Shown here piece by piece: positions 2,768 to 58,551 of a stretch of DNA of 64,000 nt. The DNA lies in the NCBI GenBank assembly GCA_963678705.1, contig OY783203.1, positions 45,694,347-45,758,346 on the forward strand. Direction: 5' to 3'. Made by a program: the position numbers and the translations under genes. The stretch is from Panorpa germanica (taxonomy: Eukaryota; Arthropoda; Insecta; Mecoptera; Panorpidae). The notes under the pieces were generated by a model. The model saw only the letters and a list, made by a program, of their open reading frames with translations. It had not been told where the DNA came from and did no database searches. Position 1 is the first letter of the stretch, and the number at the start of each line of letters is the position of its first letter.

Positions 2768-3111
2768 TCCGCAACTGGACTTTACTACCCACGAATGTAA
2801 GACTTCTAAATATAACCCAAGATTCTAAATTTAAGTCGCGAAACATCTTAGTTATATTTTTGGCTTGCGGTTTCAATCTTGAGCAATGGAGTCATCGACG
2901 CTCGGGAGTCTAACACTATGACCAGGAGATTTTATTTTGATTCTTGCATAATACCATACGTACACGTACGGGAACGAGTCTAGATCATCCCGCTCTCGCC
3001 TCTCGGACGTCACAGATGGTCGGTGGTTTATTCGGCATCTGACTCACTGCAAGTGCGTATTTGTGTATATTAGATTCCGCCTGATTCGCGCTTCGTCTGA
3101 TGGTCTACTGG

Positions 3112-3143
3112 CCTGCTATCCCGCTATCCTGCTAGCCTGCTCA
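3112..3143. repeat. 8-bp tandem array, four copies
   Basis: Units read CCTGCTAT, CCCGCTAT, CCTGCTAG, CCTGCTCA at exact 8-bp spacing. Same period and copy number as the array at 2736, but an unrelated unit. Confidence 0.8.
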
Positions 3144-3821
3144 CGTATACATGTTCATCTTACATGCCTTACTACACAAATCAGTATAAATATCTGAGAA
3201 TCGTACTTTGTCTTACGTCCTTCTTTGCGGCGCCAATTTTGCAGATATTTTCGGTTCATGATTCTTCGTTCCAAAGTTATTTTAACAGATCACTACAGAT
3301 GTTACGTTAAAAATAGCCTATGTTGTTATTTGGAGAGTATGAGCACGATGTGCGAGTATATTTATCAGCTGTGAACACGTCATCGGACCAGCACCCCTGC
3401 ACTCCTGCACCCGTTCCTCCCTAACTCAACGTCGCGGCGGTCGTCCCAAACATTCCGACGCCAGTCGTATTGCCACCAAGCACAGAATACAACCACACAA
3501 CTTTATTAAGCTAACTAATTTATTTTTAATGCTTGCGTTCAGATTTGTGCTCCAATCATAAATGTTAGAATCCGTAGACTGAAAAAAATATTATTCAAAT
3601 GGCACGTGCCTGGGATGCGGCTGCTGGTAGCATTGCCTGGATAAAAAACATAGACATGTAACGTAGGCATAGACCTGGACCATAGAGCTGGAGCTAGAAG
3701 CGCGCGGTGTTCGATGTTTTCTGGTTTACGGGCTTAATGCTTTAGTGCTTTCACAGTTTAACGTTAACGTGAACGTACGGACGTAACATGAGGCGTCGCG
3801 TGTCGCGTTCAGTGGTCGTTG

Positions 3822-3858
3822 GATCACCGATCACCGATCACCGATCAACCGATCAACC
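3822..3858. repeat. Tandem array switching from 7-bp to 8-bp unit
   Basis: Three GATCACC copies (3822-3842) are followed by two GATCAACC copies (3843-3858). The unit gains one A part way through and both versions are repeated, so the array recorded an insertion and then its duplication. Confidence 0.85.
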
Positions 3859-4084
3859 GAACCGATGCGATGCACGGTGGACAGTGATGTAGGTATAAGT
3901 ATAATACAAGCTCCGTATGCCAGTATACGACTTACGGACGGTGGTCCACAAACTGTACGAATACGGTGGACAACGGATAGAGTCCTCCCCTCTCCTTCTA
4001 CTGCCCTACTCGCTTACCCGCACGGTGTTCCATCGCTTCACGATCGCTAACCTGTAGCATGTATCTATTGTATATGCAGTCAAA

Positions 4085-4100
4085 CGTCACCGTGACGTCA
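4085..4100 (+). promoter_or_regulatory. Perfect CRE palindrome plus adjacent CRE half-site
   Basis: TGACGTCA, the palindromic CREB/ATF consensus, lies at 4093-4100. A half-site CGTCA lies directly upstream at 4085-4089. They are about 160 bp upstream of the predicted Egr start site. CREs of this kind mediate cAMP and calcium induction of vertebrate immediate-early genes; use here is inferred from position and sequence. Confidence 0.6.
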
Positions 4101-4171
4101 CTTTAAAGCAGCGCGCGATGTATGTGGAGGGGATGGTTTGGAGGGGAGACCGCGGCATGCCGTGCTCTCGG

Positions 4172-4176
4172 ATTGG
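4172..4176 (-). promoter_or_regulatory. Inverted CCAAT box
   Basis: ATTGG on the + strand (CCAAT on the minus strand) inside GATTGGCCGCC, about 80 bp upstream of the predicted start. This is the usual distance and an acceptable context for NF-Y. It is a short motif, so it rests on its position between the CRE and the CArG box. Confidence 0.45.
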
Positions 4177-4194
4177 CCGCCATCCCTGATTACG

Positions 4195-4208
4195 ACTTCC
4201 AAATATGG
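4195..4208 (+). promoter_or_regulatory. CArG box (serum response element) overlapped by an Ets-type site
   Basis: CCAAATATGG at 4199-4208 fits the SRF consensus CC(A/T)6GG exactly. ACTTCC at 4195-4200 (GGAAGT on the minus strand) is an Ets core abutting and overlapping it. SRF with an Ets-domain ternary-complex factor on such a composite site drives MAPK-dependent induction of vertebrate Egr1 and Fos. The site lies about 50 bp upstream of the predicted start. Function in this insect is inferred. Confidence 0.6.
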
Positions 4209-4223
4209 GACAGATGCTCCATT

Positions 4224-4287
4224 CATAAAAGTAAAGTCGCGAACGCGTCGCGACCAGTCTACGAGCGACCGCCAACGATAGAGGTTG
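4224..4287 (+). promoter_or_regulatory. Predicted Egr core promoter (TATA-like, Inr, DPE)
   Basis: CATAAAAG at 4224-4231 is a TATA-like box with one mismatch. CCAGTCT at 4254-4260 resembles the insect initiator TCAGT and would place +1 at A4256, about 30 bp downstream of the TATA-like box. GGTTG at 4283-4287 fits the DPE consensus RGWYV at exactly +28 to +32. Each motif is weak alone; the correct mutual spacing and the CArG, CCAAT and CRE sites upstream support the call. No transcript data were available. Confidence 0.45.
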
Positions 4288-4843
4288 TGTCGCAAAGGTC
4301 TCCAGACCTTGACCCGTCGTATACCTACGCTATACGTATCTACGCCATCGAGTAACGACTGAGTAGCATTAATTGCTTCCCACCAGTGACATATAGAGTA
4401 GACTAGTATAGTCGTGTTTTATTCCCGCGGTGTTTGTTTATACGGCGTCAATCCTGACGGCCACCGGGTGTGCACTGTTTTGGATCCCTCTCCCTCCTCC
4501 CCCCGTTCGACCACTTTCTTCCTCTGATCCTCCCTGGCCCTGCCACCTGTTTGACACTTCCTATACCATCTTTGATACAGTATCCGCAGCCCCCGTAGTG
4601 CCAATTACCCTCTTGGAATCCTCTTTGGAAAGTGCAGTTGGTGTGGAGCAAATTGTTCCAGTGTCCCACGAAAGTGTGAGCGTGAGCGTGAGCGTGAACG
4701 TTGATGACGGAGATCTAAATCCAATCAACGATTTTAGTGAAACAATTGTCAGTGTAATTGACGGTGATTCTTGTATCGTCTCAGGCGTCGCAGGTCCACC
4801 AGCACCAGCGGCTCATCCGGGAGTTCCTACCCCGCCGACGACC
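4256..4843 (+). other. sr: Predicted Egr 5' leader with one tiny uORF
   Basis: From the predicted start to the first in-frame ATG there are 588 bases with a single ATG, at 4704. It opens a four-codon uORF (MTEI, stop at 4716-4718). The preceding 448 bases contain no ATG, well below chance, as expected for a scanned leader. The coding frame is also open without a stop from 4412 to 4843, so part of this region may be translated from a non-AUG codon or an unseen upstream exon. It includes a 6-bp repeat GTGAGC around 4675-4698 that would encode alternating Val-Ser. Confidence 0.5.
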
Positions 4844-5168
4844 ATGATCATGGACGGGCTGGAAACGCTGACCCCACAGCACCATCACCATCACGCTTCC
4901 GCCTTCCTTCTTACGGAAACTGCGGCTGCGGCGGCTGCACATTTCAACGTGCTAAGTTTTGACACGTGCCTCTACAAGGGCTCCGGTCCGTCTGGGTGTG
5001 ACAGCGGGGGAAGTCCGGCTCCGGGAGTCTCTGCATCGGCTTCTGATCTTGCCGAAAGTGCGGCCTCGGAGCCCCAACCAGGAGATCTCAACACCCCTGT
5101 GACAACATCCGGAGATATACCTTCCTTCTTCGGGCCATCAACAGTTGTGGAACCACCCCCAATTACAG
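4844..5168 (+). CDS. sr: Egr/stripe zinc-finger transcription factor, coding exon 1 (N-terminal region)
   Basis: Encodes residues 1-108 plus the first base of codon 109. I chose ATG 4844 because it is the first in-frame ATG, in a good context (gacgaccATGA); a second ATG follows at 4850. The segment has a His run (PQHHHHHAS), an Ala run (TETAAAAAAHFNVLSF) and Ser/Pro/Gly-rich stretches typical of an activation region. It ends at the donor ACAG|GTAAGC. The phase (one base carried) matches the exon at 16194, and the junction codon is GGT (Gly). The frame is open 144 codons further upstream with no ATG, so the true N-terminus may be longer. Nothing in this exon alone is diagnostic of EGR; the call rests on the phase match and the zinc-finger exon. 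Confidence 0.8.
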
Positions 5169-5381
5169 GTAAGCTAACATCAACCAATTTTCTATGTCAT
5201 TCTGCTGTAATTGTCACATTTGCCATTTAGTCATTGACTTAGTCGCGATTTGCGATTCGCGGTTCACCGCTAAACTAATAATGACACTACTTAGAGTATT
5301 ACTGGCGGTGACATCATTCCCGTTGCCCGTAGTGTAATGACAACATATCGTACCGACATAAAACACTAAACACAGAACACA

Positions 5382-12127: not shown

Positions 12128-13158
12128 TATATTTTTTTATTAGGAGTATATATTTTAATTTGTGTTGTGGTTTTATAATCTATGCTTTATTTTCAATGCA
12201 ACATTTTGATTTTTTTGATATATTTATTTAATTAAATATCGTTCAGACATATATCCCACTGTTATTTCAACCGGTCTGTGATTATAATCTACACTGGCCG
12301 AAGCACGGCCCGCGGACTGCATATCAGTTTCTTTATTTCACGCTATTACTGTACAGGTATTCCTTCTTTTCAGCTTAGAGGGCAATATCATAATCATAAA
12401 AACGGATCAGCCATAAACTTTCAAAAATTTTCATTTTTGTGCATTTCTCGATATAGTATAGTATAATCAAACATTAAGATGAGAATCTTAACTTGAGTCG
12501 GGAAATGTAAATGAAGAGACATTTTAAAGAAGACACCCCTGGCTCCTGATTAAGATGACCCTGTACAGCTATGGTCCGTCAAATATTTACTTCATTGTAA
12601 CGCGTATAGAACAAGTTTTCGTAATAATTTTTCTGTGAATTTTATTCACATTAAATAGTGGGAAAATTCATCAAAATTTTTTCTTGTATTACAGTAACAA
12701 AAAGCCAATTATGTTTAAGTAGAATTCAAGTTAAAATAAATTAAAGGTGTGTTTTACATTTGAGTAAATATAAAAATAATTTATTAAAATAATAAACACA
12801 CTACCTAATGTTATTATATTGTGAATACCATCTAATACTTTTTATACTTAAAAAAACTTAACCAAACAATTCAAAATATTTATATAATAAAATAATAATA
12901 AAACTTACAGAATTTTATGAATGAAGTTGATAAATTTTAATATTATTTTTGACTATTTATTAAATGATATAAGATTTTTTTTTAGAAGGTTAACTTCTGT
13001 TAATTAATTTTATTAATAAATTAAATAAACTGGTGTTGATAATTAGTAATTAAACTCATTGTCAAAGATCGTACTACTACAGAAATGTTGAAGTATTATT
13101 GTTGGTCTGTAAAGAATTCTCTACGTGATCTGTATGTGTGTACTCGTCGTACTGAACA

Positions 13159-16174: not shown

Positions 16175-17566
<1,392 letters not shown>

Positions 17567-29893: not shown

Positions 29894-30132
29894 CAGAAGC
29901 GTAGCGAGGTAGGGGCGGAGTGGGCGGCCGCCACGGTCTAACTTAGACGCTCAAAAACACGGTTCAACTGTGACTATATACAATTGATTTTGCGTAAGAT
30001 CTAAAGCAAAAGGTAATTTCAGATAGGCTGAAAAGCAATTGAGACTAGAAGATACAATTGATTTCGTATGCGAACTAAAAAGCTCTCATAGGGAATATCG
30101 CCAAGGCTCCCATTAGACTCGGTACGGCACTG
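29894..30132. mobile_element. hAT-like MITE with 8-bp target duplication
   Basis: The left end CAGAAGCGTAGCGAG and the complement of the right end CAGTGCCGTACCGAG match at 11 of 15 positions. The flanking 8-mers ATAACATA and GTAACACA agree at six of eight, suggesting an old duplication. Length 239 bp, non-coding. Caveat: the sequence just outside the right end is also similar beside the related end at 47956, so the exact boundary may differ. Confidence 0.5.
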
Positions 30133-45999: not shown

Positions 46000-46560
46000 T
46001 TTTAGGTGTTTTATATGCTTGATTTATTTTATTTATTTATTTATTTTATATTTTATAATTTTATATGCTTTCCTCTCTATTTTTCCAGTATCTCTTGCCT
46101 TTCTCTTCGTTTCCCAATCTTCTTTTCTCGTATGTATTTCGGTATCTCTTTCTCTTGTATCTTTCATTATATTTTTTCCATTCTTTTCTGCTGCAAAGCA
46201 TCTCTCTGTCTCTGCTTCTTAGCTCCACTTCCACACTTGTGCCTTCTTCTCTTCTTCTCTCTGCCTCTTCTGTCGTTATTTCATTCCTTTTAAAGCACTC
46301 CTTTCTCCTTTTCGTTCCTCCTCTTCCTCTCTTATTTTCTTTAGGATCTCGCCTACAGTATTTCTCATTTTCTCCTCTAATCTAATTGGCCTTCTTCCTA
46401 CTTCGGTTTTATTTTGTCCCTTTTTACCTCCTTTATTACCATATATTCCGGCGTGCACTTGTCCAGCCCTAATACCCATTTTACATATCTTTCTTGGATT
46501 TTTTTCAATAAATATATAGTCAATTAAACCCAGAAAATACAACGATGCTGAAAATCGATC
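46000..46560 (-). pseudogene. Decayed LINE fragment, post-RT region
   Basis: On the minus strand 46506-46401 encodes ERYVKWVLGLDKCTPEYMV and then KEVKRDK, a segment found between reverse transcriptase and the terminal zinc finger in non-LTR elements I associate with Hymenoptera. After a frameshift it continues as VGRRPIRLEEKMRNTVGEIL and, after another, as KEIPKYIREKK. Frameshifts and stops make it a dead copy. The strong C/T bias of the + strand over this region, which opens long spurious + frames, is the complement of Lys/Glu/Arg-rich coding. Confidence 0.65.
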
Positions 46561-47339
46561 CCGAAGGCACAAGAACCTGCCGAAAGCTCCTCAATGCTCT
46601 CGTCCACTATCCCACCTGGTTGAAAATTACATATCAACTGTGCAATAGACTTAGCATAGATATTCAAATTTTCTACTGTTGACAAAGACAATTTTGTATT
46701 ATAATGTTTCAGTGATCAATACTTTAACAATTGTGAGACCGACGATTCATTTTTCAATTACTTTATTGCCTTATATATTTTAACGAGTATGTGACATGTA
46801 AATAAGCACATAAATAATAATTAGCAGACGATAAAGCCACGGCCACGGCCCTCTCGTATATAAGGCGTAAACAGTTATTATATGTCACCGATCACTGATT
46901 GTATTTGACAGAAGCGAAAACCAAAAGACAACCATGTTTTCCCAAGAGACTAACTCGAAATTAACACTGAAAATAACAGTAATCGAGTATTAATAAAATT
47001 ATAGTTCATACACGTAAATGTCACAAGAGAAACTTGTCCCGTACCGATGTCACCTGAAAACAAATTAATAAGGTAGATTCACAATTGGGTGGATAACTAC
47101 AGCTAAATACATTTTGTAACGTTTATATAATATTTACCTTTAAACGTATTTGCTACATTCTTTTTGTATATTTATTTATACTTTATGCCTTACGGTTTTA
47201 CTAATCCCTTACATTTTATTTAATTTCATTACAACACATTCTCATCTCACTAAAATACAACAGATCTCTGTAATACAACTATTTCCTGTACTTCAACTGA
47301 ACCAGTTTCTTCCGTTGTCTTGTCTCCAATTTAGAGAGC

Positions 47340-47830
47340 GTTGCCCTCCGTAGAGTCGTTATTCCTTTACCTCCCCTTCTCGTATTTTTTCTCGTATTTT
47401 TCCTGATTTCACGTCTAGTCTTCCTCGATACCTATGTATCTTCTATTTAGCTTTGTTATTAAATTCTAGCTAATTTCTTGCTTCGCTTTCTTCCACTACT
47501 TTAAACATTTTTAAATTCTAATAGTGTTCGTCTCTCTTATTCTGCTCCATCTCTTTTTCTACTACGTCTTCCTTCCTACCTATCATAACCTGTCATTTCT
47601 CTACTTCCTCTGTTTTCATTGCCTATCCTAAATGTCGCGATCGTTCTAGTTTATTTACTTCCCTGTCCTAGATATTTCGACCTCCTTCTCGTCCACAGTT
47701 TTCTGTATCTTACATTATACCACGATTCCTCTATCTTACTCAACCTTTTCTGCTGCTACTCTTCTACATCACATTCTCTTATCATCCCCTCTATTCTCTT
47801 TCCTCTTCCTTCACAATAACCTCTCCTTTC
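47340..47830 (-). pseudogene. Second decayed LINE fragment, more C-terminal
   Basis: On the minus strand about 47735-47690 reads IEESWYNVRYRKLW, and about 47641-47583 reads ATFRIGNENRGSREMTGYDR with stops between. These match the xESxYNxxY and xARFRLGNExR-type blocks before the zinc finger of the same LINE class. It is a separate copy from that at 46000-46560, since it carries a more C-terminal part yet lies upstream in the minus direction. Confidence 0.6.
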
Positions 47831-47904
47831 CTTGGCCCATCTCGTATTCTATTTCACACATTTTGAACATTTAAAATTTATATGTGTAAATCTAACTGTA
47901 TAGA

Positions 47905-47956
47905 ACATCTAAAAAGCCCCTGTAGTTTCGGATTCTTGTATATCAGTACGGCACTG
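47905..47956. mobile_element. hAT-like terminal fragment
   Basis: The complement of the right end reads CAGTGCCGTACTGATATAC and matches the right terminus of the MITE at 29894-30132 (CAGTGCCGTACCGAG). The opposite end was not found. Confidence 0.4.
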
Positions 47957-48611
47957 GTTATGGTAACACAACATGTTTTCACAAACAACACGCGAATATT
48001 GAGTTTTACTCGTAGTTTTAAACTTTAATAAACCCAAGCAAACTAAATTAGGATCCAGGAGTGTTATTACAGGTAATAACTAATTGAATATTGTGAAACT
48101 TATATATTTACGTAATAATTTTGCATCAGAATTTAAAGTATATAAACTTAACGTCAACATTATTGCTGAAACTGAGAGTTTTACAACACTGTCAGACTGT
48201 GCAACCAGTATGCAAAAGTAATCAAACCATCAGAACGGGACACTGTCAGAAACAAATGTTTCTACTACTCGGATAAAGAATTGTCAAAGGTACATATACT
48301 AAATATTGTACAAATTATTATTTTTATTAAATTTTATGACTGTACTGTAATTTCGAGTTCGATTTTTAGACCGCCGCATTCTGGGTTCACTTATTGTTTT
48401 TAATAATGGATTGTATAAAATATATAATAGAAAACAAACTATTGAATAGTTTGAAGCCCTCGGGGTAGCTCTTGCTGATTAATACCTCTCCGCTGCTAAT
48501 AAATATGACACAATTGATACATAAATATAACTTTTCTTAAATAACTTTAATTCATGCACTTAACTGTTGACTCTGATACTTATACCATTAGCGATTTGTT
48601 AATTATGTATG

Positions 48612-49941: not shown

Positions 49942-50146
49942 TGTTGGAATTACAATACATTCATTCTTAAATTAAATTACTGAAACTGGTTTTGTTTTTG
50001 TTTATATAAAACTATTATATTAAATTCAATTGTTTTATGTCTATAAGAAATTTTTACTGATTTTTTTCTGTATAATTTCAGTCTGAGGACTTATTGATTA
50101 ATAAAATATTTAATATATAACTGTGCATATAATATCTGCTTCAATA
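49942..50146 (+). repeat. Copia element left LTR (205 bp)
   Basis: Begins TGTTGGAATT like Drosophila copia LTRs and ends TTCAATA. By eye it is identical over 205 bases to the right LTR. TATATAAA at 50003-50010 is a probable promoter TATA box, and AATAAA at 50100-50105 a probable polyadenylation signal. The 3' terminus is ATA, not the usual CA; the target duplication and the adjacent primer site fix the boundary. Confidence 0.92.
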
Positions 50147-50160
50147 GGTTATGGGCCCAG
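50147..50160 (+). other. Copia primer-binding site (half initiator tRNA-Met)
   Basis: GGTTATGGGCCCAG directly follows the left LTR. It complements the anticodon-arm region of initiator tRNA-Met (CTGGGCCCATAACC, containing CAT), not the tRNA 3' end. This is the priming mode known from Drosophila copia, which uses a 5' half-fragment of initiator tRNA. Confidence 0.85.
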
Positions 50161-50169
50161 GCAATTAAT

Positions 50170-53100
50170 ATGACGACATCAGTGAGTGCTACAAGATTTG
50201 AGCTGTTGAGTAAGGACAATTATGAAGCCTGGAAAATTCATGTTGAGGCGCTATTGATCAAAAATGATTTGTGGGAATATGTCAGTGTTGAAAAACCGAT
50301 TCCTGTTGCTGCGGAAAATAATCAAGAAGAAAGAAATGGATGGATAAAAATTGATCGTAAAGCTAAGTCAGAAGTAATATTAGCAATTAGTTCAACGGAA
50401 TTGCAGCATGTCCGAGGTTGTAATACTTCTCATGAAGTTTGGCAAAAACTTGCCTCAGTTTATGCTTCCAAAGGACCTGCAAGAAAAGCTTTATTGCTTA
50501 AGCAACTTATGCTTCACAAGATGTCTGAATGTGGTGATGTCAGGGATCATGTAAACAAGTTTTCGGATATAGTTGATCGACTTGGAGCTATGGATATTGA
50601 AGTGAATAAAGATTTATTGTCTGTAATGTTATTATATAGTCTACCAGATAGCTATGAAGGCTTTAAATGTGCTATGGAATCACGTGATGAACTCTTGGAG
50701 GTTGAAGCTCTTAAGGTTAAGATACTTGAGAAGAGTGAAATTGGTTCAAATTCAGTTGTTGAGTTAGCTGGAAATGTAAGGGCTGAAAATCAACCGAGTT
50801 ACAAAAATATTTTTAAAGGATATTGTTTTAAATGTGGAAAACAAGGACATAAGTCTCCTGAATGTCCAACTCAATTGAAACCAAATTTCAGAAGAAATAG
50901 ACCAGATAGACAGAATAGATACACACAAGAAAACCAATGTTCTCAAGCGGATGATGATACTTTTGCAGTACTTAATGTTGAATTTGCTGGTAGTGTTCCA
51001 AGTTGTCGACCTTGGATTCTTGATAGTGGCTGTACAACACATTTATGTGGTGATAAACAATTATTTAAGTCTTTAAATGAAGAAATTAGTGGGAAAATAA
51101 ATTTGGCTAATCAAGCAAATAGTGAAATCAAAGGAAAAGGTACTGTTAATTTGTCGATTAGTAATGGTAAACAGCTGAGGTCAGTAGATTTTTCAAACAC
51201 ATTATTTGTACCAGATTTAAGGTCAAATCTAGTATCAGTTGCTAAAATTACTAATAAGGATCATGAAATTCTATTTAAAAAGGATTCAGCTGTAATTATG
51301 GATATGACTGGAAATGTTAAATTTGTTGCTGAAAGGCGTGGTGATCTCTATTATTTACAAGAAGGTAATGAAGAAGCTTGTATTGGAGAAGATAAAGCTA
51401 ATTCTGAGTTATTGATGTGGCATTGTCGTATGGGTCATTTAAATGCTAAGGATTTATTTCGGGTGATTAATCAGAATACTACAAGTAAAGTAACCTCTGA
51501 ACAATTGAAATGTTTGTCAAGATGTGAAGTGTGTCTACGAGGCAAGATGACAGGGTTACCGTTTTCAGGAAGTGAACGACAGAGTGAAGAACTTCTTGAA
51601 ATAGTTCATACAGATATTGTTGGACCGTTTAGGACACAATCAGTGAATGGAGCAAAATATTTTATTACATTTATTGATGATTATTCTCGATGGTGTGAAG
51701 TATACTTTCTTAAACAGAAGAGTGGTGCACTAGAAGCTTTCAAAATGTATCAAAATCAAGCTGAACGTATGACAGGGAAGAAGATTAAGTATCTTCAAAG
51801 TGATAATGGTAAAGAGTATTGTAATACTGAGATGGATTCTTTCCTGCGTAATCAAGGTATTCAACGTCGATTAAGTGTTGTAAGAACACCTCAGCAAAAT
51901 GGTGTTGCTGAACGTTTAAATCGAACATTAGTTGAAATGGGACGATGTTTATTACTTCAATCAAATTTATCGGATATGTTTTGGACTGATGCTGTAGCTA
52001 CAGCATGTCATTTGAGAAACAGATGTCCTTCAAGAAGTATTAATGGAGATACTCCTTATCAGAGATGGTTCAACAGGGATAAAGTTCATTTAAATTATTT
52101 ACGAGCATTTGGATCAACTGTATATGTCTTAGATAAAGATCCAACAAAAGGCAAATTATCTGATAGATCAATGAAAGGAATTTTTGTAGGTTATCCACGT
52201 GAATCAAAAGGATACAGAATTTGGTTACCAGAAAAGAGAAAATTTATTGTTGCTCGTGATGTGAAATTTATTGAAGATAATGTTACTACAGTTTTAAAGA
52301 ACCAAGAGATTAAACAGCTGATTATTAATGATTTTGAAAACAAGGATAAACCATGGATTGAATTGATAACAGGATTTAAAATTAGTAATGAGACAGAAAC
52401 TTTAGATGGAATTCCAGAAGAAAATTTAGAAGATAATGAAGAAAATGAAAATTCATCTGGTATTCAATCATCTATTCAAGAAACTCCTAGAAGAAACTCA
52501 AGAGAATATACTAGAGAAGAAAGAAGAGGACCAGGAAGACCAAAATTAATTAAAACAGGTTTGAAAGGACGTCCCAGAAAATTATCTTCAAAAGTTAATA
52601 ATTGTGAAGTTAAAGAAAGGATTGAATCTGATTCTAATGAAGATGATAATGATAATGATAATATATTTGTTGGAGTAGCTGAAGTTAAATTGGAAGATGC
52701 TATTAATTCTCAAGAGTGTGCTGAGTGGAAGAGAGCAATTAAATCAGAAGTCATAAGTTTATTAAAAAATGATACTTGGAATATTGTAAAATTACCTGAA
52801 GATCAAAGTGTTGTGGGAAGTCGAATGATTTTAACAAATAAATTTGGATCAGATGGGCTTATTGAAAAAAGAAAAGCTCGTATTGTTGCAAAAGGTTATA
52901 GTCAGAAATATGGTATTGATTATGATCAAACTTTTGCTCCAGTTGCAAGAATGGAATCAATGAGACTTTTAATTGCATTGTCTGTGGAATTAAAACTTGT
53001 AATAAGACAATTTGATGTTGTAACTGCCTATTTAAATGGAATATTAGAAGAAAATGTTTATATGGAAATACCGGATATGCTACATGAAATTTTGATGTGG

Positions 53101-53433
53101 ATAATTGATGATAGTCAGGTGTCTGAAGAATTAAAAAATAAAGCAATATATTTAAATGATTTATTGACTGAACTAGAGCAAGAAAAATTTTTGAAAATTA
53201 AAATATTAATTGACAATCGTGGAGCTGAACAACTGGCAATGAACTCGATTTATCATGCACGTACAAAACATATAGATATTCGTCATTATTTTGTTCGTGA
53301 TGTAGTTGATGAAGGAATTATTAAATTACGTCATGTATCAACTAATGAAATGGTTGCGGATATTTTAACAAAAGCACTGCCAAGAGAGTTACATGAAAAA
53401 TTCACTGAAGGATTGGGACTTCAAATTATTTAA
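50170..53433 (+). CDS. Copia gag-pol polyprotein with in-frame RT/RNase H deletion
   Basis: 1087 codons from ATG 50170, with no frameshift. Domains in order: Gag (UBN2-like, about 1-200); CCHC zinc knuckle C219, C222, H227, C232; aspartic protease motif D285-S-G-C; GAG-pre-integrase around 415-465 (WHCRMGH, CEVCLRGK); integrase core with D482, D545 and E581 (D,D-35-E); two AT-hook-like motifs at 787-792 (GPGRPK) and 800-803 (GRPR); start of reverse transcriptase from W853 to about 1004, including D949 in QFDVVTAYLNG; then a jump to late RNase H (ILIDNRGA with D1015, KHIDIRHYF, ADILTKALP). The YVDD active-site box and the first RNase H acidic residues are absent, removing roughly 300 residues relative to the family, yet the frame is kept. 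It should encode Gag, protease and integrase but no active polymerase. Confidence 0.93.
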   Translation: MTTSVSATRFELLSKDNYEAWKIHVEALLIKNDLWEYVSVEKPIPVAAENNQEERNGWIKIDRKAKSEVILAISSTELQHVRGCNTSHEVWQKLASVYASKGPARKALLLKQLMLHKMSECGDVRDHVNKFSDIVDRLGAMDIEVNKDLLSVMLLYSLPDSYEGFKCAMESRDELLEVEALKVKILEKSEIGSNSVVELAGNVRAENQPSYKNIFKGYCFKCGKQGHKSPECPTQLKPNFRRNRPDRQNRYTQENQCSQADDDTFAVLNVEFAGSVPSCRPWILDSGCTTHLCGDKQLFKSLNEEISGKINLANQANSEIKGKGTVNLSISNGKQLRSVDFSNTLFVPDLRSNLVSVAKITNKDHEILFKKDSAVIMDMTGNVKFVAERRGDLYYLQEGNEEACIGEDKANSELLMWHCRMGHLNAKDLFRVINQNTTSKVTSEQLKCLSRCEVCLRGKMTGLPFSGSERQSEELLEIVHTDIVGPFRTQSVNGAKYFITFIDDYSRWCEVYFLKQKSGALEAFKMYQNQAERMTGKKIKYLQSDNGKEYCNTEMDSFLRNQGIQRRLSVVRTPQQNGVAERLNRTLVEMGRCLLLQSNLSDMFWTDAVATACHLRNRCPSRSINGDTPYQRWFNRDKVHLNYLRAFGSTVYVLDKDPTKGKLSDRSMKGIFVGYPRESKGYRIWLPEKRKFIVARDVKFIEDNVTTVLKNQEIKQLIINDFENKDKPWIELITGFKISNETETLDGIPEENLEDNEENENSSGIQSSIQETPRRNSREYTREERRGPGRPKLIKTGLKGRPRKLSSKVNNCEVKERIESDSNEDDNDNDNIFVGVAEVKLEDAINSQECAEWKRAIKSEVISLLKNDTWNIVKLPEDQSVVGSRMILTNKFGSDGLIEKRKARIVAKGYSQKYGIDYDQTFAPVARMESMRLLIALSVELKLVIRQFDVVTAYLNGILEENVYMEIPDMLHEILMWIIDDSQVSEELKNKAIYLNDLLTELEQEKFLKIKILIDNRGAEQLAMNSIYHARTKHIDIRHYFVRDVVDEGIIKLRHVSTNEMVADILTKALPRELHEKFTEGLGLQII

Positions 53434-53451
53434 ATTGTTGAAATGAATGTC

Positions 53452-53462
53452 TTGAGGGGGTG
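53452..53462 (+). other. Polypurine tract of the copia element
   Basis: TTGAGGGGGTG lies immediately upstream of the right LTR, the expected place and composition for the plus-strand primer. Confidence 0.8.
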
Positions 53463-53667
53463 TGTTGGAATTACAATACATTCATTCTTAAATTAAATTA
53501 CTGAAACTGGTTTTGTTTTTGTTTATATAAAACTATTATATTAAATTCAATTGTTTTATGTCTATAAGAAATTTTTACTGATTTTTTTCTGTATAATTTC
53601 AGTCTGAGGACTTATTGATTAATAAAATATTTAATATATAACTGTGCATATAATATCTGCTTCAATA
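53463..53667 (+). repeat. Copia element right LTR (205 bp)
   Basis: Same 205 bases as the left LTR. AATAAA falls at 53621-53626. The LTR is followed directly by AATCC. Confidence 0.92.
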
Positions 53668-53672
53668 AATCC
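53668..53672. other. Target-site duplication AATCC, right copy
   Basis: Matches 49937-49941. Removing one copy and the element rejoins the flanks as GGTTCAATCCAATGACC. Confidence 0.9.
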
Positions 53673-54437
53673 AATGACCAGTGATATTTTCTGCGTTTAA
53701 TTTTGTATCTTCGCTATGCCGGTTTTGTTTACTAAAACAGTTTTTGAAGATAAAAATGTTTTAGGAACTGTTCAATGTTTACAAAACATTGGTGTTTTTG
53801 TTCAGGAAAACAGCTTTTGTTTGTGTTTTGTTGTTTTGTCTCTCTGGTGTGAAACCGGCATTAGATTGATTTTTGCTAAATATTTAGTTATTCACCAGCC
53901 TATGTCAATGCCAGTAAAACTTTGTGCCCTTTTCCTTTTACCCTTTTACGTGTACATACGATACGTGTAAAGAACTGCGACTTAATCAATGTATCCGATT
54001 CAAAAACTCAAAGTTTCATTCACTGATACCTTATCAGTTACTTAATTATCTAGATATTAAAAATGCATTATTGAAATATATGAATAACATTTCCAGCCAA
54101 ATTTATTAAAAAGAAATCCTCTAAATTATGTACAGTCGCATATCATTACAGTGATTACTTCCTGTTCGGTAGAAAATTGATACGAACTGAAACTACTGTT
54201 TTTGTACTATTTTATATCTTTGTTGTAAATCGAATGCCATTTTTAACAGTTATGCTCAAGAATAAGTGCAGTGAGCATCTACTGACCAGATTAAAGAAGT
54301 CAGTGTTGTTATAATGTATCAGATCACTCAATAAGTGCATTACTTATATAGTACCAAAATAAGTTAGATAATACAAAACTTCAAAATATTGGAATATTTT
54401 ATATAGCCATTGCTTTGCTTGAAAGGCATATTCCCAC

Positions 54438-58543: not shown

Positions 58544-58551
58544 TGACGTCA
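58544..58551 (+). promoter_or_regulatory. CRE palindrome TGACGTCA
   Basis: Perfect CREB/ATF site in the GC-rich stretch after the candidate TATA/Inr. One of four within 3.5 kb. Confidence 0.45.

Follow-up and report, generated by a model that had tools for sequence, protein, structure and literature searches.

The Egr gene of Panorpa germanica raises the question of whether the DNA at its 5' end holds a recognisable stimulus-responsive promoter, and at which base transcription would begin in it. The initial annotation had proposed such a promoter with CREB- and SRF-type sites, inputs that would be ancient or convergent, and a start at 4256. The window referred to below is the whole stretch of 64,000 nucleotides that was analysed.

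The Egr gene and its upstream elements

The gene in the window is a homologue of Egr (stripe), as the initial annotation had stated, with 78 of 86 finger residues identical to EGR1 of PDB 4x9j. EGR1/Zif268 chains were the best solved-structure matches across the full three fingers, while long multi-finger proteins outscored them solely through repeated partial matches. The coding frame runs from the ATG at 4844 to the stop codon ending at 17566; a splice donor (GTAAGC) is found at 5169 and an acceptor (TTGCAG) ends at 16193, and exon 2 is spliced in frame to the exon adjoining the promoter. Read by eye, positions 4771-4784 hold a possible splice acceptor (TTGTATCGTCTCAG) in exon 1 before the ATG, to which a different first exon further upstream might be joined. 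The elements upstream of and within the gene are as follows, with distances counted from A4221, the probable main start.

4084-4089, plus strand: CRE 1, core ACGTCA, at -137; overlooked by the initial annotation
4093-4100, palindromic: CRE 2, perfect palindrome TGACGTCA, at -128
4136-4151, plus strand: GA-rich stretch close to the position of the polyneopteran GAGA motif; weak, differs from the consensus
4172-4176, minus strand: inverted CCAAT box (ATTGG), at -49
4193-4211, plus strand: conserved SRE block CGACTTCCAAATATGGGAC, reverse complement of a primer in PMC6140108
4195-4200, minus strand: Ets core ACTTCC (GGAAGT on the minus strand), with 4199-4200 common to the CArG box
4199-4208, no strand assigned: CArG box CCAAATATGG, SRF-type site, at -22 to -13
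4219-4224, plus strand: initiator CCATTC, fits the published consensus YCATTC; probable main start at A4221
4224-4231, plus strand: CATAAAAG, the TATA-like box of the initial annotation, just 3' of the probable start and within 4217-4236
4237-4253, plus strand: GC-rich stretch between the initiator and AGTYY, differs from the literal consensus; overlooked by the initial annotation
4256-4260, plus strand: AGTCT, fits the published DPE AGTYY, at +36 to +40; the initiator of the initial annotation
4283-4287, plus strand: GGTTG, fits RGWYV, the DPE of the initial annotation at +28 from 4256; probably incidental
4221-5168, plus strand: exon 1 of Egr-B with 5' UTR, coding from ATG 4844; 5' end predicted
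16194-17566, plus strand: exon 2 of Egr with three C2H2 zinc fingers, up to the stop codon

A closely similar arrangement has been described. Watanabe et al. 2018 (PMC6140108) report conservation of roughly 200 bases surrounding the egr-B start among hemimetabolous insects, Tribolium castaneum and Daphnia pulex, the cores being 161-239 bp long. Their Table 2 places these cores at NC_007417.3:2997452-2997620 in Tribolium, LC215247:1518-1711 in Gryllus and ACJG01000376.1:1584357-1584191 in Daphnia, and lists none as conserved in Drosophila and Apis. The published set consists of two CREs, a CCAAT box, an SRE, the initiator YCATTC, a GC-rich motif and the DPE AGTYY. The layout and its antiquity were already published there, and the ancient origin suggested by the initial annotation agrees with it as regards arthropods. 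PMC6140108 was the only description of this promoter retrieved in a literature search whose scope left out most subscription journals.

Conservation in Panorpa was judged via the primer sequences and consensus motifs given in PMC6140108. The SRE block is present and is identical to the published primer site at 19 of 19 positions. Two CREs are found, the perfect one exactly where the initial annotation had placed it; as a pair (ACGTCA-N4-GACGTCA) they have the spacing of the published forward primer with its 4-base spacer. That primer matches 4081-4100 at 14 of 20 positions, a score equalled elsewhere in the window and so weak alone; the two CRE cores are retained at the same spacing, and the bases around CRE 1 differ. 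The inverted CCAAT box, also correctly located before at 4172, is present as ATTGG, and the available passages give no orientation for the published box. YCATTC is followed downstream by AGTYY, and the promoter lies at the 5' end of the Egr gene, as in the published class. Measured between the first primer base (4081) and the last base of AGTYY (4260), the region is 180 bp long.

Two of the published strings were not found in their literal form. The GAGA consensus GRGAGGGRVGGAGAGS differs from 4136-4151 at 5 of 16 positions, and a better match in the window, with 2 mismatches, lies at 29908. According to the same source, as far as available, the GAGA motif, situated about 80 bp upstream, occurs in polyneopterans only and is absent outside Polyneoptera, so it is not required for membership of the class. 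The GC-rich consensus GCGCSSSGGCGCGC has its best local match with 5 of 14 mismatches.

The complete match to the SRE primer, together with the set of elements and their order, indicates that the window holds a copy of the known promoter. We consider it likely that 4081-4264 represents the Panorpa version of the egr-B core promoter conserved in arthropods, with a start near A4221 and a paused polymerase that would be released upon stimulation. The stimulus-responsive insect Egr promoter of the initial annotation is in this respect in agreement with the published set. Added here are the Ets core inside the conserved SRE block, one further species and the remapped elements.

The SRE 19-mer was also searched in the species' own genome (464 Mb, 249 contigs), where one exact copy, one copy with 2 mismatches and 34 with 3 were found; the reversed control gave 23 matches in all. 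In the 2-mismatch copy (L010), no CRE, CArG, CCAAT or YCATTC occurs over locus positions 1300-1750. A genome search with the CRE pair gave 28 matches, several of them one palindromic place on both strands, and 9 with the reversed control. Among these 28 the motif scan covered four loci (L013-L016), all rejected as relatives since none has a CArG box over locus positions 1300-1750; one of them (L014, G000:C1:30126228-30129244) is an array of approximately 11-bp tandem repeats with ACGTCA, giving a false CRE-pair match. The SRE 19-mer had no match in viral contigs and a single match in the genome contig collection, on a Bacillota MAG contig (L021) of which about 250 bases, inspected by eye, look unrelated. 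A distant blastn search of 4000-5200 against plasmids gave no match.

Several other features were observed in the window and the genome. Four further perfect CREs (TGACGTCA) lie at 58544, 58782, 61946 and 62029, a span of 3.5 kb with no perfect CArG box near, and perhaps mark another promoter. An open frame of 1111 aa at 50098-53433 (plus strand), inspected by eye, resembles a Copia-type gag-pol; its reverse-transcriptase portion seems to be truncated ahead of the RNase H end. GC skew is strong, with -0.37 at 46001-48000 and about +0.25 at 50001-54000. A COX1 family search of the genome gave 20 matches, one on a 16.4-kb contig (C249), likely the mitochondrial genome, and 19 partial matches elsewhere (e.g. 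C16, C1, C3, C21, C5), likely nuclear mitochondrial copies; COX1 of this genome reads under the invertebrate mitochondrial code, and the COX1 and ND2 frames have a beetle-like look.

Possible signalling inputs to the CREs and the SRE block

For the cricket, the available passages of PMC6140108 report that egr-B is induced by neuronal hyperexcitability and that about 1.6 kb of upstream DNA drives an activity-induced reporter. According to the legend of Figure 2-2, egr-B was raised by the phorbol ester TPA, with no obvious change with other drugs, forskolin included, while the discussion states that single pathways failed to induce egr-B; in these passages legend and discussion are not fully in accord on TPA. 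Because TPA raised egr-B and forskolin did not, a PKC/ERK-type input to egr-B has some support, while a cAMP input is unsupported in the cricket test. The cAMP input to Egr suggested in the initial annotation finds no backing in the cricket, the one insect tested. A review of immediate-early genes in social insects names Elk-1/ETS and CREB/CRE as potential egr inputs (PMC6514070, in the part available). Among fly activity-regulated genes, the enriched upstream motifs include Lola, Eip78C and Rel, and SRF and CREB are not named in the available passages (PMC5148613).

The CREs may then have no cAMP role at Egr and may instead be used by other bZIP factors (ATF, AP-1-like) or for basal activity, with SRF/Ets as the main input, a reading to which we give somewhat less than an even chance. 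The forskolin and TPA results point in this direction, but they come from one dose, one time point and whole brain of another species, and the CREs themselves are reported as conserved in the available passages of PMC6140108.

The SRE block contains both strings of an SRF/TCF element, as the initial annotation had described: a perfect CArG box with an overlapping Ets core. Joint binding of SRF and an Ets factor at 4195-4208 is nevertheless uncertain, because the Ets core has bases 4199-4200 in common with the CArG box. In a word search of PMC6140108, Ets, Elk, TCF and ternary gave 0 mentions, and TATA appeared solely within "TATA-binding protein".

Position of the transcription start

In the cricket core (1518-1711) the cap-mapped start is base 1668, 43 bases before the core end (PMC6140108). 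The GC-rich motif of the same paper sits between start and DPE, some 30 bp past the start in basal insects; it is stated for most hemimetabolous insects and is not universal in the published set. In Panorpa, YCATTC occurs once on the plus strand of 3000-5168, at 4219-4224, a site overlooked by the initial annotation and situated inside the second primer block. The second reverse primer of PMC6140108, as printed in the available passages, matches 4217-4236 at 16 of 20 positions; a site on the opposite strand at 12907 scores as well, and the match is weak alone. Among the 33 YCATTC sites on the plus strand of the window, only 4219-4224 has a CArG box within 35 bp upstream. The sole exact match to AGTYY in 4060-4300 is at 4256-4260, and 49 of 20,000 shuffles produced a YCATTC that had AGTYY at +25 to +45. 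Applied to A4221, the cricket offset gives 4264 (4221 + 43).

With the published initiator consensus at 4219-4224 and the published DPE at the site formerly taken as initiator, 4256 is probably not the main start. The consensus strings place the main transcription start most likely at or near A4221, about 35 bases upstream of 4256. At +36, AGTYY lies past the usual position of the fly DPE.

The initial annotation had instead taken A4256 as the main start, in which case CATAAAAG would be a TATA box at -32, CCAGTC the initiator and GGTTG a DPE at +28. We judge this arrangement, or a softer form of it with tandem starts at 4221 and 4256, to be unlikely, although all of its strings are present and in register. 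A TATA-like box, YCAGTY and RGWYV at +28 did not arise together in 20,000 shuffles of 4080-4265, and among the 56 YCAGTY sites on the plus strand of the window only 4256 has both an upstream YATAAA and RGWYV exactly at +28, but this triplet was picked after inspection of the sequence. The initiator string CCAGTC (4254-4259) departs from the fly consensus TCAGTY at one base, and RGWYV is a weak motif, found every 67 bases on the plus strand of the window and every 48 bases in 3000-5168; GGTTG was for this reason rejected as stand-alone evidence for the 4256 start. CATAAAA is part of the stretch matched by the second conserved primer, and AGTYY too is a conserved element (PMC6140108), but the cap-mapped cricket start precedes the GC-rich motif and then AGTYY, which places AGTYY downstream of the start.

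If transcription begins mainly at or near A4221 within the YCATTC initiator, the following sequence of events can be proposed. CREB/ATF-family factors would bind the paired CREs at -137 and -128, a CCAAT-binding factor the box at -49 and SRF the CArG box (-22 to -13), while an Ets factor on the overlapping core would either cooperate or compete with SRF. A paused polymerase may be held with the help of the GC-rich stretch and AGTYY, and ERK/PKC-type signals arriving at the SRF/Ets site, probably with other inputs, would lead to its release. Egr would in this way be a fast, stimulus-induced gene.

Placement of the SRE at -22 to -13 depends on the proposed start, and is perhaps already apparent from the figure in PMC6140108. 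A +1 at 4221 puts the CArG box near the TBP site of TATA promoters, so that SRF/Ets could act on the initiation complex itself. More tentatively, and with considerable doubt, the composite Ets/SRF site may be part of the core promoter of arthropod egr-B, its occupancy placing or blocking the initiation complex, with the TATA-like/AGTYY pair 35 bp downstream as an alternative start.

Chance expectation and relation to known promoters

The frequency of the elements was estimated in 20,000 shuffles of 4080-4265. A CRE arose in 80 dinucleotide shuffles and a CArG box in 125 shuffles; a CCAAT box, which alone means little, arose in 6,494. Overlap of Ets core and CArG box was seen in none, as was the combination of CRE and CArG under dinucleotide shuffling. 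The SRE primer block was approached no closer than 3 mismatches, a level that a single shuffle reached. CRE and CArG box lie 106 bp apart, closer than in any other of the 25 combinations of 5 CREs and 5 CArG boxes in the window, the next distance being 4,917 bp. Taken alone the CArG 10-mer is common in the genome, with 539 + 534 matches, compared with 337 + 340 when the reversed control was searched. That the motif cluster is a chance assembly within a GC-rich, CpG-rich first-exon region is scarcely credible: CCAAT and RGWYV are common, the CArG 10-mer occurs 1,073 times in the genome and CpG is not depleted at the locus (observed/expected 1.3), but the failure of CRE and CArG to arise together in any shuffle and the full match to a published conserved block speak against it.

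Compared with the egr-B core of PMC6140108, as far as its available passages describe it, the Panorpa region is the same in the spacing of the CRE pair (according to one primer), the CCAAT box, the base-identical SRE block, YCATTC, the downstream AGTYY and a similar length. It differs in the literal GAGA and GC-rich strings and in the flanking bases of CRE 1.

Few promoters are recognisable by sequence across arthropods, and finding the SRE block base-identical in one more species helps to reveal which bases matter. Two details can be tested, the Ets core overlapping the CArG box and the SRF site right at the start. The promoter fragment is ready for use in neuronal-activity reporters in Panorpa germanica.

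With vertebrate Egr1 and c-fos promoters, the Panorpa promoter has in common SRF- and CREB-type sites near the start of an immediate-early gene. Vertebrate Egr1 carries several SREs, further upstream. Panorpa Egr, unlike vertebrate Egr1, has a single CArG box, located at -22 to -13 of the probable start and having two bases in common with an Ets core.
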